Assembly: GCA_025362575.1 (NCBI GenBank)
Contig: JANYIQ010000292.1
Location: forward strand, 1 to 37,076
Length of the DNA stretch: 37,076 nt
Direction of reading: 5' to 3'
From: Bacteroidia bacterium
Lineage (GTDB): Bacteria > Bacteroidota > Bacteroidia > B-17B0 > Aurantibacillaceae
Made by a program: the position numbers and the translations under genes. The notes under the pieces are model-generated. The model did not search any database. It saw only the letters and a list, made by a program, of their open reading frames with translations, and was not told where the DNA came from. Shown here in pieces: positions 30,451 to 34,645 of the stretch; positions within the stretch are counted from its first letter, which is position 1, and each line of letters begins with the position of its first letter.

Positions 30451-30471
30451 TTCCTTCTTTAACTAGAAATT

Positions 30472-30503
30472 AAAAAGCCCTTTCGGAAACGAAGGGGCTT
30501 TTT
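30472..30503 (+). terminator. Intrinsic terminator of the HU gene
   Basis: A 14-bp stem, AAAAAGCCCTTTCG with CGAAGGGGCTTTTT, closes a GAAA tetraloop (30486-30489) and merges into a T tract. One T-G wobble only. The mirror-image A/T ends could also serve the TPR gene from the other strand. Confidence 0.9.
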
Positions 30504-30512
30504 ATTTTACTT

Positions 30513-30534
30513 AGTTATAAGAGATGAGTTATGA
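30513..30534. repeat. Copy of the AGTTATAAGAGAT repeat family
   Basis: AGTTATAAGAGATGAGTTATGA. The first 13 bases equal 13 of the 14-bp unit tandemly repeated at 35383-35410. It lies between convergent genes and its TTA supplies the stop codon of the TPR gene. Confidence 0.6.
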
Positions 30535-32097
30535 TCTATTCAACTTATTAAGAGACCTCTCAATATAATTCTCATTAGTCATCAACGCATTCTGAATTTT
30601 TTTGGCGTAATGAATGCTATCCAGAATTTCCCTTTGTTTTTCTTCAATAATGTGTTTTTGTTTATTCGTTATTTTTAGAGAACGATACACAAAAGCGGCA
30701 AATACAATTACCAGTAATAAGCCCAATACAGCAACTCCTATCACAATTTGCTGAAAACGGTTTTTCTCTTCTGCTACAGCCCTTTCTTTTTCCTGCTGTT
30801 CTTTTATTACCGACTCCTTTTTGTCGTATTCGTATTTTAACTGACTTTTAATACTGGCCTTTCGTGATTCTTCGTTGGCAATCACATCTCTTTTAGTAAT
30901 GTACTGCTTGTAATGTGCAAAGGCACTTTTAAAATTACCATTGGACGAATCAATTTTCGTAAGTAAACCCTCGGCATTACGAATCTTTTCAGCGAAACCC
31001 AATTCTTTGGAAAGCACAAGTGAACTGTCAGAAAAATACCTAGCAGAACTGAACTTCTTTTGTGCAAAGTATACTCGACCTAGATTAATGAATGATTCTG
31101 CAAGACCATCCTTGCTGCCTGTTTCTCTTTCGATCACCAAACTTTTTTTAAAATAGTCAAGGGCCTCTGTTGTTTTTTTCTGACTGAAATATACGTCCCC
31201 GATCATTCGAAGCGAACTGGCGATGGCTGTTTTGTAGCCTATCTCTTCTCTTAATTTTAAACTTCTGTTAAAGTGATCAAGAGCAAGCGGAATATCATTA
31301 TTCACTTTATAATAAAGATAACCGATATTGTGCAAAATAATGGCGACGCCTTCTTTTGAACCCATTTCTTCGTTCAATTTCAAGCTTCGGGTATAATACT
31401 TTAAAGCTTTAGCAGCGTCGCCCTGTGAGCAATAAGTATAGCCAATGCTGTTCAATGAGCTGGCAATTCCAATTTTATCTCCGATAGATTCTCTTATTTT
31501 TAAACTGTTGTCCCAGTATTCAAGTGCTTTTGGAATATCACCCTGATTGCTGTATAAAGACCCGATGTTATTCAACATCTGTGCAATGCCTTTTTTATTT
31601 CCATTCTCTTTTTCCATTTGCAGGCTTTTGTTCCAATGATCCACGGCCTTTGAAATGTTACCTTGTGTATAATAGATAAGTCCGAGGTTGTTGTATGTAG
31701 TAGCAATACCCAGTTTATCACCGATTGCTTGTCTGATCTTTAAGCTTTGAAGATGGTATTGAAGTGCCTTATTTAGATCTCCTTTGTTTTGTGCAATGAA
31801 TCCAAAATTATTTAGGGCGTCTCCAATGCCTTTTTTCCCTTTGGTTCTTATTTTCTCATCAGCACTCTGAGCAAGTTTTTTGGCGAGTTCATAGCCTCTT
31901 TCATTGTAGAGCGGCCATACTTTCTCATCGTTAATGGTTTCTGCCAATTGAAATAATATGCTGAGTTTGCTTGTATCGCTAATATTTGTTTTTAGGACAA
32001 AAACCAGAGAGTCAACGGTTTTATCCTGCGCAACAGAAATTAAATTACTGAGGCAGAAAATAAGTGAAATTGAAAAATATTTGAATTCCTTAACCAA
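30529..32097 (-). CDS. TPR-repeat sensor-like membrane protein, ends at the signalling helix
   Basis: The 522-residue protein has a signal peptide, then about eight TPR repeats at about residues 85-390 (units such as ALNNFGFIAQNKGDLNKALQ, YNNLGLIYYTQGNISKAV, LNNIGSLYSNQGDIPKALEY), a Lys/Glu-rich coiled coil, one membrane helix (GVAVLGLLLVIVFAAFVYRS, about 450-470) and a cytoplasmic helix with KQREILDSIHYAKKIQNAL. In Bacteroidota this layout normally continues into a SpoIIE/PP2C phosphatase or another output domain. Here it stops 20 residues later, so no output domain is present. Shorter relatives with this end also exist. The start is TTG at 32097, fixed by an in-frame stop at 32101-32103. 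A TTG-19-CAAATTTG promoter-like pair lies upstream. Confidence 0.82.
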   Translation of the reverse strand: MVKEFKYFSISLIFCLSNLISVAQDKTVDSLVFVLKTNISDTSKLSILFQLAETINDEKVWPLYNERGYELAKKLAQSADEKIRTKGKKGIGDALNNFGFIAQNKGDLNKALQYHLQSLKIRQAIGDKLGIATTYNNLGLIYYTQGNISKAVDHWNKSLQMEKENGNKKGIAQMLNNIGSLYSNQGDIPKALEYWDNSLKIRESIGDKIGIASSLNSIGYTYCSQGDAAKALKYYTRSLKLNEEMGSKEGVAIILHNIGYLYYKVNNDIPLALDHFNRSLKLREEIGYKTAIASSLRMIGDVYFSQKKTTEALDYFKKSLVIERETGSKDGLAESFINLGRVYFAQKKFSSARYFSDSSLVLSKELGFAEKIRNAEGLLTKIDSSNGNFKSAFAHYKQYITKRDVIANEESRKASIKSQLKYEYDKKESVIKEQQEKERAVAEEKNRFQQIVIGVAVLGLLLVIVFAAFVYRSLKITNKQKHIIEEKQREILDSIHYAKKIQNALMTNENYIERSLNKLNRS

Positions 32098-32107
32098 TGA
32101 TTAATTT

Positions 32108-32119
32108 AGCAAATTTGCT
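32108..32119. promoter_or_regulatory. 12-bp palindrome AGCAAATTTGCT overlapping the putative TPR-gene promoter
   Basis: A perfect palindrome whose minus-strand CAAATTTG is one mismatch from TAnnTTTG and is 19 bases from an upstream TTG. It could be an operator or simply the -7 element; starts 11 bases before the TTG start codon. Confidence 0.3.
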
Positions 32120-32199
32120 TAACAGTCAGTTTAACACAATACCCGCTTTATTGTTATTTAAAGCTAAGATATAAAGGTTTTGGAAATAACGGGCAGAAA

Positions 32200-32649
32200 T
32201 TATTCAGCAACCGTGGCTTTACTTACACTTCTATAAATGTATTCATGATAGATGTGCCTTCTGGCAAATCTGGCAACGTTGCCCGAGTTGATCAGCTTGT
32301 TGTAAACGTTCTTTGGAACTCCAAAATACTCATAAACACCTCCATTCAGAAGGGTGATCTTTAAGGTCTGTCCCTTATACTGAAAATCATCAATTCCAAA
32401 AGTGTCGGTTATTTCTTTGTACTCTTCCAAATTAGCGGCATGTGTTTCGGGGGAAACACTCACTAAAAAATGATAAGCCTCAATAATGTTCTTGCTTTTT
32501 AATTCAGCTTCGGCCAGCAGTTCATCATTATCTCTGAACTTATCAGGGTGCCATTCCTTCATTAGATTTCTGTATACAGTTTTTAATTTAGCGAGATCTG
32601 CATCAGCGCTGATGTCAAATAATTTTCGGTGATCGATTATACGTTTCAT
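32200..32649 (-). CDS. J-domain protein fused to a KTSC domain
   Basis: From the ATG at 32649 the protein has 149 residues. Residues about 8-65 form a J domain with the essential His-Pro-Asp (NLMKEWHPDKFRD), so it should stimulate a DnaK-type chaperone. Residues about 90-145 match the KTSC domain (PF13619): QTLKITLLNGGVYEYFGVP, VYNKLINSGNVARFARRHI and a Tyr-rich end. KTSC has no firmly known role; it is found in lysyl-tRNA synthetase C-termini and short proteins. The frame opens at 32688, but a perfect TACCTTTG promoter lies inside that extension, so the ATG at 32649 is preferred. It is monocistronic as far as seen. Confidence 0.82.
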   Translation of the reverse strand: MKRIIDHRKLFDISADADLAKLKTVYRNLMKEWHPDKFRDNDELLAEAELKSKNIIEAYHFLVSVSPETHAANLEEYKEITDTFGIDDFQYKGQTLKITLLNGGVYEYFGVPKNVYNKLINSGNVARFARRHIYHEYIYRSVSKATVAE

Positions 32650-32659
32650 AAATGGGTTG

Positions 32660-32691
32660 CAAAGGTAGGCTATCTTGAGCTTGCACACAAA
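32660..32691 (-). promoter_or_regulatory. Bacteroidota-type promoter of the J-KTSC gene
   Basis: On the minus strand TTTG (32688-32691) and TACCTTTG (32660-32667, perfect) are 20 bases apart. The ATG is 10 bases past the -7 element, so the leader is a few bases at most. Confidence 0.65.
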
Positions 32692-32750
32692 TGTTAATTG
32701 AAAGCCTCTGAAATGGCCTGCAGCAGGGTGAATTTAATACAATTTAGGAA

Positions 32751-32942
32751 CTATAGTTTTTTTTGCGTTTTAATAAAGAACACCATGCTTAAAAAAACAA
32801 AAGCAAGAAGGGTATAGGTGGCAAAATGAGCCATGCCGGGCCATGCAATGTTATTTTTATACCCAAAAAAGTTAGGCAATACAATACCTAAACCCGCCGA
32901 AATAGCCAGAATAATTAAAAACTCTATTATCTTTTTTTTCAT
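32751..32942 (-). CDS. Small two-helix membrane protein
   Basis: The 63-residue product starts at ATG 32942 (a GTG at 32951 would add three residues). It has a Lys-rich start, a hydrophobic helix (IIEFLIILAISAGLGIVL), a short loop with FFGYKNN, and a second helix (YTLLAFVFLSMVFFI) followed by KTQKKL. Both ends are positively charged, so both probably face the cytoplasm. No family recognised. It lies just left of the inverted-repeat island and is probably part of the host backbone. Confidence 0.55.
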   Translation of the reverse strand: MKKKIIEFLIILAISAGLGIVLPNFFGYKNNIAWPGMAHFATYTLLAFVFLSMVFFIKTQKKL

Positions 32943-33036
32943 CGATTTCACAGTTGGCGATCGGTGGGGTTTGAAAATTACCCTTGCCTAAGCACAACCG
33001 TTAAGCTAATGTACAAAATTTCCCCTTACGACAATC

Positions 33037-33077
33037 GCCCGCTGGAGGTCAACCGTGTGTTATAACCAGAAGCGGGC
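33037..33077. other. Imperfect hairpin at the left end of the island, overlapping the 18-bp inverted repeat
   Basis: GCCCGCTGG (33037-33045) pairs with CCAGAAGCGGGC (33066-33077), leaving three extra unpaired bases on the right arm and a 20-base loop. The unpaired bases within a GC-rich stem recall folded integron attC sites, but the attC core GTTRRRY is not present at the GTTATAA in the loop. Confidence 0.4.
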
Positions 33078-33595
33078 ACACAGCTGCGTCACGCTTACGT
33101 GTCCGCTTTGTGTTTGTTGTGGTATCTAATTAGGTCATTAAGAAAGTCAGTGTCTTTACATTTTATTGCGTTATGAGGAATTTCAATAGCTTTCTCGGAG
33201 TTTTTTAAAATAATTGCCGTGTGACCACCAAATGCTTTACCTTGGTTAGGTCTCCACGTTATTTCTTTTATGTCTGTCCAATTATATTCTTTTCTATTTA
33301 CATTGTCTACCAATGATCGATTAGTCAGTATTACGGCAGGTTGATTTGTCATTATACCAGATAAAAATCGTGAATACCGCCGAAAGGAAACTACAAGAAA
33401 AAACAAAGGTATGGCTGCGAAAAAAATGCTCAGTCCAACGCTCTCGTCAAATGCCATAACACTTACTGTTGAAAAAATTATAACTAAAGCAAGAAGAATA
33501 ATTGTCGCAAGCGTCAAAGACTTTTTAGAAAAATAATATTCTATATTTAGGTCAGTCATTGTCTTAGGAATAGTCGTCCCGCTTTTGGTTATAAC
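33059..33595. mobile_element. Single-gene unit bounded by an 18-bp inverted repeat (17/18)
   Basis: Left end 33059-33076 reads GTTATAACCAGAAGCGGG. Right end 33578-33595, read on the other strand, gives GTTATAACCAAAAGCGGG. Only the 11th base differs. The 537-base unit holds a single gene (33095-33559) that fills nearly all of it, with stop 18 bases from one repeat and start 18 bases from the other. No transposase or integrase is present, so it would be a non-autonomous cassette or miniature element. Confidence 0.6.
33095..33559 (-). CDS. Small two-helix membrane protein with a PH-like domain (STM3941-like)
   Basis: From the ATG at 33559 the protein has 154 residues. The longer frame to 33670 would read through the inverted repeat, so it is rejected. 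Residues about 14-58 contain two hydrophobic helices (ATIILLALVIIFSTVSVMAF and GLSIFFAAIPLFFLVVSF). The rest looks like a PH-like beta domain, with AVILTNRSLVDNVNRKEYNW followed by TDIKEITWRP, typical of the STM3941-like family common in accessory regions; the assignment is from pattern memory. It ends in a His/Lys-rich helix. It is the only gene between the two halves of the 18-bp inverted repeat. Function unknown. Confidence 0.65.
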   Translation of the reverse strand: MTDLNIEYYFSKKSLTLATIILLALVIIFSTVSVMAFDESVGLSIFFAAIPLFFLVVSFRRYSRFLSGIMTNQPAVILTNRSLVDNVNRKEYNWTDIKEITWRPNQGKAFGGHTAIILKNSEKAIEIPHNAIKCKDTDFLNDLIRYHNKHKADT

Positions 33596-33677
33596 GTTTT
33601 GCGAATTTGCGCCGTTTTTTTGCTTTGTTAAGTTACACATTTGAGCGATAACCCGCAAAAAATGGAGCAAGACCTGT

Positions 33678-34584
33678 GTTACCTGCTGGTTTTATGTCAC
33701 AATATAAGCCCACGAATATACCCTTTGATGTCGTCCGATTGTGTTAGGTCGAAGTTGTTTAATTTTTTACTTATTGAAGTCAGCTTATTGATGTTAATGT
33801 TTGCGGTTAGTAAAATTTGTTTTTTTAGACGCCTTCTAATAACCGTGTCCTTTGAGATAAAATTAAGTCGTACAAATAGTGTTTGGTAATTAGCAAAAAG
33901 GGCCAAAGGATAAATAAAGGGAATTAGAAAGAGTGTCAAAACTATTGGTAATGAAAACGAGAATAAATTTTTGGAGTCGAATAGCTTGTTTGGCATTGAA
34001 AACGTCTTATAGGTCACGTACACAAGTACTGTGAGCCCAAACAAGGAGAGAATATTCTTTAGCAATTTTGTCACTTGTTCGTTTTTTTTGTCGGTCTCCG
34101 AAACTGTCTGCATGAGAACGACAAGAAGTAAAAATGGAAGCAAGATTAATTCAGTAAGTAAACTAAAGGTGTACAGATTAACTATGAATTCAATTATTAT
34201 TGTCCACTTTACGCTTTCCTTAATTACAGTTTTAAAAAATGAAAAGTCTTTTGCCTTATTGATAGAAAAGAAAAGAACTAAAGCGACACCAAAAAACCAA
34301 AATATAGTGTCTTTAAGAAGTGATTTGTCCCAAAGGTCGACTTTATAAAACAAAAAAATTACAACGCAAATGAAACTTACTTGTAAAAGAAAAGGAATTA
34401 CGATTTGTTTGTCTAAAAAAGTCGCAACTAAATTTAAAAAACCTTTTCCGACGCCTTTAGCAAAAAGTAATAAAAATGTCGCGAAGAGTCCGAGCCAAAT
34501 TAGGAAAGCCAATTCGCGAGTAGAAAATATGTCGAGAATTGCTTTCATTGTCGAGAAGTGTCCTTCGTCAAACTTGCTGGTAAC
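33678..34584. mobile_element. Second single-gene unit bounded by an imperfect 19-bp inverted repeat (14/19)
   Basis: Left end 33678-33696 reads GTTACCTGCTGGTTTTATG; right end 34566-34584 on the other strand reads GTTACCAGCAAGTTTGACG. The first six bases are identical and begin GTTA like the repeat of the neighbouring unit. It holds one membrane-protein gene, whose stop directly abuts the left end. Confidence 0.4.
33697..34548 (-). CDS. Multi-pass membrane protein of unknown function
   Basis: The 283-residue protein has about seven to eight hydrophobic segments (including AFLIWLGLFATFLLLFAKG, FLLQVSFICVVIFLFYKVD, LLPFLLLVVLMQTV and LPIVLTLFLIPFIYPLALFA) and a soluble Lys/Asn-rich C-terminal part of about 60 residues after the last helix. 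The opening MKAILDIFSTRELAFLIW resembles hypothetical proteins I have seen in accessory islands of varied bacteria; no function is known to me. Base composition is more AT-rich than that of neighbouring housekeeping genes. It occupies the second inverted-repeat unit alone. Confidence 0.7.
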   Translation of the reverse strand: MKAILDIFSTRELAFLIWLGLFATFLLLFAKGVGKGFLNLVATFLDKQIVIPFLLQVSFICVVIFLFYKVDLWDKSLLKDTIFWFFGVALVLFFSINKAKDFSFFKTVIKESVKWTIIIEFIVNLYTFSLLTELILLPFLLLVVLMQTVSETDKKNEQVTKLLKNILSLFGLTVLVYVTYKTFSMPNKLFDSKNLFSFSLPIVLTLFLIPFIYPLALFANYQTLFVRLNFISKDTVIRRRLKKQILLTANININKLTSISKKLNNFDLTQSDDIKGYIRGLIL

Positions 34585-34645
34585 TTACTTATAGGTGCTG
34601 TTTTTTAGCGCCAATTCAACAAGCCTTTGTGTGCTTAGAGAATGT

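Follow-up and report, generated by a model that had tools for sequence, protein, structure and literature searches.

The window, meaning the whole stretch of DNA analysed here (37,076 nucleotides), carries a small membrane-protein gene, P1, framed by an 18-bp inverted repeat. The sequence GTTATAACCAGAAGCGGG lies at 33059–33076 on the plus strand and its inverted copy, with one mismatch (17/18), at 33578–33595 on the minus strand, where the arm upstream of the gene reads GTTATAACCAAAAGCGGG (33595–33578); each arm stands exactly 18 bases from the P1 stop or the P1 ATG. This is precisely the arrangement described in an earlier note on the locus, and the note's view that such a match at the gene ends is very unlikely to arise by chance was borne out as well—100 dinucleotide shuffles of the window gave no inverted-repeat match, with up to three mismatches allowed. 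Eight of the 18 bases form the palindrome GTTATAAC, which fits both strands, and the informative remainder is CCAGAAGCGGG / CCAAAAGCGGG. A more important element was missed on that first reading, namely an attC-like site between P1 and its neighbour P2, together with a second cassette upstream. The features are as follows.

33095–33559, minus strand: gene P1, 154 codons, a membrane protein of 154 aa
33059–33595, minus strand: cassette 1, one gene (P1) between an extended R' arm (33595–33578) and an extended R'' arm (33076–33059)
33578–33595, minus strand: 5' end of cassette 1, with GTTA (the R' core, common to attC_A) and the TAACCAAAAGCGGG arm, then the common motif GGGACGAC
33059–33076, minus strand: 3' end of cassette 1, with the CCCGCTTCTGGTTA arm and TAAC (the R'' core), preceded by the common motif CTGTGTGC
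33592–33681, minus strand: attC_A, reading TAAC...hairpin...AAAACGTTA and scoring 82.5 bits against covariance model R1
33697–34548, minus strand: gene P2 of cassette 2, a multi-pass membrane protein of 283 aa with no family match
33678–34584, minus strand: cassette 2, putatively bounded by GTTACCAGCAAGTTT (34584) and CCAGCAGG-TAAC (33678)
32990–33062, minus strand: attC_B, the presumed site expected after P1, recognisable by its outer arm and TAAC only
30451–34645, no strand assigned: a 4.2-kb block that five relatives of the same genus lack in the interval bounded by the HU and pRiA4b-ORF3-like genes

P1 bears a distant resemblance to the STM3941 family (27 bits; cut-off 40) and has almost no close homologues; one at locus L006 shares 37% identity and has no R1 site nearby. 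P1 homologues were too few to guide the delimitation of the unit and were dropped for that purpose. Searches of plasmids and phages returned no match to P1 and viral contigs held no exact match of the site core, and a phage or plasmid origin was rejected on these grounds. Defence-system models matched neither P1 nor P2. A 66-aa ORF at 32751–32951 was considered as a third cassette and set aside, no matching 3' arm being visible by eye.

A family of attC-like sites and the pairing of cassette ends

Used as a DNA query, the spacer at 33575–33700 finds dispersed homologues within this genome, its genus and its family, and also beyond the family, in several others of the same class. Those matching best over the full length (contig C126 of this genome, and genome G028) run from TAAC to GTTA. 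An alignment of 23 copies gave the consensus hairpin TAAC-A-[L'']-T-tract stem-loop-[L']-AAAAC-GTTA, the stem arms of which covary, with compensatory change in 12 of 16 consensus pairs. This genome contains 24 attC-like sites, and R1 finds at least one in 58 of the 87 genomes of the family; the counts are lower bounds because R1 misses versions with long loops. Such versions, about 180–190 nt in length, were seen at L105 6380–6562 and 8049–8240. The imperfect palindromes are conserved in structure over sequence and ordered R''-L''-L'-R', which is the criterion for integron sites. Six or seven of the seven L-arm pairs are kept in 91 of 111 sites with intact ends, and, of 99 sites with a clear outcome, 81 fold better as the bottom strand and 18 as the top. 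The cores GTTRRRY (R') and RYYYAAC (R'') are kept in 10 and 9 of the 111 sites, respectively, only GTTA/TAAC being retained.

The ends of each cassette also pair with one another. Across 47 intervals that separate one site from the next, the bases directly following GTTA were scored against the reverse-complemented bases directly preceding TAAC. Two ends belonging to one cassette scored 8.6 on average, against 1.56 (sd 0.28) for ends shuffled between cassettes; none of 10,000 permutations reached 8.6, and a cassette's own partner end was the best of the 47 in 35 cases. The same pairing (8.3 vs 1.6) recurs in 13 distant intervals from Flavobacterium, Pedobacter, Arundinibacter and others. The paired ends are 350–1,570 bp apart, the largest ORF lies in the sense direction in 43 of the 47 cassettes, and the units form head-to-tail arrays with one hairpin site between neighbours. 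Cassette 1 fits this pattern: its end-to-end score of 12 is within the range of the other cassettes, and both CTGTGTGC before the 3' arm and a GGACGAC-like sequence after the 5' arm are present. The repeat in the window is thus the pair of outer arms that would flank the hairpin core in a circular cassette; their meeting around that core in the circle would explain why the ends of a cassette are inverted repeats and why arms differ from one cassette to the next. Two further observations concern array content. Nearly identical cassettes of about 350 bp without a sizeable sense ORF occur at L062 7272–7629 (G035) and L126 7132–7476 (G108), and at L094 3611–4779 (G100) a cassette array has an IS3-like two-ORF transposase directly inside it or at its end.

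These properties bear on what the earlier note had proposed. Its description of the unit as a non-autonomous cassette is well supported, since many other one-gene cassettes form a large family whose ends are built alike, and so is its notion that one gene is moved at a time; the MITE-like half of the proposal is not supported, the arms being specific to each cassette. The 18-mer does not serve, as had been suggested, as an end sequence framing other single genes: with up to two mismatches, the 4.3-Mb genome holds no copies beyond the two ends of cassette 1, and among 100 relatives searched there are two near matches, both in unrelated settings (L003, L004). An 18-mer found here and nowhere else was the outcome named in advance as refuting, yet the cassette reading stands because the arms of this system are cassette-specific.

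Comparison between genomes gives a view of movement. A mercury-transport cassette present in G111 and G464, members of two families, is 86.6% identical; the homology opens 11 bases ahead of the cassette (−11) and stops with the final base of the cassette's own site, and both flanks are unrelated. A MazEF-type cassette common to G035 and G005, members of two genera, shows homology from CGTTA to 11 bases into the site. The limits of these two shared cassettes place the crossover at AAAAC-GTTA, as judged by comparison—one cassette with both ends at the core and a second with its 5' end there.

The tyrosine recombinase beside the arrays

Many genomes of the family encode a tyrosine recombinase of about 380 aa, often with a contig end no more than 2.5 kb downstream of it, and where enough sequence is available the sites usually lie downstream of it on the same strand. 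We assembled 80 recombinase loci from data with one genome per species; most are Bacteroidota, and a few records carry other labels. At these loci, 34 of 35 matches to R1, a model built before the loci were seen, and 102 of 105 matches to R2, a model partly trained on the loci on which it was tested, are downstream of the recombinase and on its strand. With at least 1.5 kb available downstream, R2 finds a site at 33 of 41 loci and none at the remaining 8, the first site standing a median of 1,065 bp beyond the recombinase; no attI site was recognised. The suggestion that a recombinase is supplied from elsewhere thus agrees with what is seen in relatives, where arrays adjoin this gene. This genome retains a C-terminal remnant at C282:4745–4978, 677 bp upstream of a four-site array (two of the sites are short; the other two, read by eye, have long loops). 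N-terminal fragments occur elsewhere, one of them cut by the start of contig C192; searches of the 327-contig assembly found no intact recombinase.

The catalytic residues R, K, H, R, H and Y are invariant in this recombinase, and IntI4 residues 186–239, which include the I2 patch, have no counterpart, 12 residues standing in place of 54. The best NCBIfam profile is the XerA model NF040815 (210–215 bits, just under the cut-off of 220), and scores against the IntI model TIGR02249 are 199–207 bits, with a cut-off of 265. In searches with a full structure model, the top Foldseek match was IntI4 on its site DNA (PDB 2a3v, E 3.7e-18) with XerA close behind, and VIA-align ranked XerA first. The N-terminal 65 residues are predicted to form a compact separate domain (pLDDT 87) with a W-S-x3-K-x-W motif that we take to be reminiscent of HARP. 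The domain's fold matches are weak (Foldseek E about 0.1, none below 0.001), with a Z of 6.9 to the archaeal XPB damage-recognition domain and of 4.3 to SMARCAL1 HARP (4o66; rmsd 1.9 over 49 residues), a score range that includes unrelated folds, and sequence profiles gave no match. The modelled likeness to HARP/XPB is a lead, not a finding.

One alternative is that a true, patch-bearing IntI, encoded in certain cells or relatives, moves these units in trans as classical integron cassettes, the ~380-aa recombinase being a bystander. The architecture of the sites does resemble attC, and one family genome does encode a true IntI (G029:C26:4401–5339, L104; 443 bits, interrupted by an in-frame TGA). 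TIGR02249 is matched weakly by all 87 family genomes, as it is by Xer proteins, and by all 14 control genomes too; its cut-off is exceeded in that one genome of the 87, whereas sites occur in 58, and the 6.6 kb around the G029 gene contain no R1 site. The position of nearly all R2 sites downstream of a patch-less recombinase and the poor retention of the GTTRRRY / RYYYAAC cores also speak against this explanation, which we regard as unlikely.

A probable cassette system and the state of the window copy

We conclude that the unit is very probably a cassette with a single gene, part of a gene-shuffling system of Bacteroidota that resembles integrons. A cassette of this kind carries one short gene with an attC-like site behind it; once it is excised as a circle, the two end arms would join around the hairpin core to give one long stem made of the outer arms, the TAAC/GTTA core, the L stem and a variable loop. 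Exchange proceeds by crossover at the AAAAC-GTTA junction, judged by the two shared cassettes. The enzyme most likely to act on these sites is the ~380-aa tyrosine recombinase whose gene lies a short way upstream of the arrays; it would probably recognise a folded single strand, the bottom strand preferred, in the manner of integron integrases.

Hairpins after genes often end transcription, and the core here has a T-tract stem and is located 3' of genes, so the hairpin and its arms could be read as transcription terminators or RNA processing signals, the inverted repeat having no part in recombination. We consider this very improbable as a full account: it leaves unexplained why ends 350–1,570 bp apart pair, why shared cassettes have exact ends, why there are arrays and why a recombinase is linked to them, and Rfam returned only sub-threshold matches in the region. 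A double role, in termination or processing as well as in recombination, is possible. Least probable of all is a MITE-like or transposon unit with terminal inverted repeats served by a transposase in trans, for while an inverted repeat does frame a single gene, it is unique to cassette 1 and so supplies no terminal repeats common to dispersed copies, the arms pair within each cassette and differ between cassettes, the units stand in head-to-tail arrays with one hairpin site between them, and shared cassettes end at attC-like cores.

Under the cassette reading, the copy in the window appears worn. The inner stem of attC_A is intact and its outer L arm is mismatched (3 of 7 pairs); because of this mismatch, the site folds as a single strand no better than shuffled sequence (z about 0). 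Its halves look as if derived from two sites, and site halves more generally look as if exchanged between sites. In three genomes one L'' half, ACAGGTCTTGC, is combined with L' halves that do not match it (window 33592–33681; L055 8398–8486; L060 7575–7662). Cassette 2 starts at GTTACC and its upstream junction has no attC core, as if it had been inserted at a secondary, non-attC site, for which a missing upstream core is expected. The site after P1, attC_B, shows no recognisable inner hairpin and no match to R1, and has presumably degenerated by loss of that hairpin. Beside it, an imperfect inverted repeat (GGCGAT...AATCGCC, 32955–33043) may be a remnant of another element. A CALIN is a cluster of two or more attC sites, spaced by less than 4 kb, that has no integrase; the window holds one recognisable site and a second, degenerate one.

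The earlier note had looked to relatives for empty sites: the 4.2-kb block is missing from the same interval in five genomes of the genus, and for cassette 1 itself no empty site is demonstrable, P1 having almost no close homologues. Given that the assembly yields nothing but recombinase fragments and that attC_B is degenerate, the window probably carries an outpost of two cassettes, inserted between two conserved genes and left stranded there, that no longer moves alone. Separately, a gene for a four-helix-bundle-like protein of ~129 aa lies between the glycosyltransferase and pRiA4b genes at L021 1734–2314 (G001) and L016 1087–1681 (G004), framed by tandem GGTTATAA / CTATAACC octamers and absent from four other relatives.

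Significance and comparison with known systems

The I2 domain is reported to be required for cassette capture and to be known from IntI alone (PMC7790495), and the insertion has been called essential for integron function, though it is not fully conserved in an integron-like subgroup (PMC8138268). Published surveys for a patch-bearing IntI with canonical attC sites report almost no complete integrons in Bacteroidetes, Salinibacter ruber being the only case (PMC9024848). Searches of the open-access literature found no description of the cassette system reported here; subscription journals and preprints may hold one. We propose, with somewhat less than even confidence, that Bacteroidota harbour a large, overlooked system of the integron type, run by an enzyme without I2 in which the HARP/XPB-like N-terminal domain and the long outer arms, formed in the circle only, substitute for the patch; either the domain or the arms could have taken its place. 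If so, this would be a second route to single-strand cassette recombination, whether independent or ancestral. Should the patch-less recombinase handle hairpin sites, the rule that I2 is necessary would be incomplete, a phylum-wide gene-exchange system would have been missed, and the adoption of single-stranded sites by integrases could be tested by comparing two solutions. The cassettes would offer toxin-antitoxin genes, mercury-transport genes and many unknown genes a route for single moves among environmental Bacteroidota.

The resemblance to integron cassettes and CALINs extends to one short gene per cassette and to head-to-tail arrays in one orientation. As with attC, the site is an imperfect palindrome 3' of the gene, with TAAC/GTTA ends, a covarying stem, a variable terminal loop (total length about 90, 126 or 190 nt) and a more stable bottom strand; as in integrons, crossover would fall at the GTT core and the recombinase gene stands at the array end. 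Unlike integron attC sites, those described here retain GTTA/TAAC in place of GTTRRRY as the R core, and their outer arms would lengthen the R stem by roughly 4 to 14 bp more, joining in the circle only. Recombinase and array share one reading direction, unlike in integrons, and the enzyme differs from IntI in having no I2 patch and an extra N-terminal domain. IntI4 of Vibrio cholerae (2a3v) has the same core-binding and catalytic domains plus the residues 186–239 missing here, whereas XerA / Xer proteins (PDB 5hxy, 4a8e, 1a0p; NF040815), the closest by sequence profile, likewise have no patch but lack the roughly 100 extra N-terminal residues and the linkage to cassette arrays. HARP of SMARCAL1 and the archaeal XPB damage-recognition domain resemble the N-terminal domain as weak fold matches, with no profile match. 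Judged by anatomy and genome comparison, the system is integron-like, yet it lacks two of the hallmarks that define integrons: a GTTRRRY core and a patch-bearing IntI.
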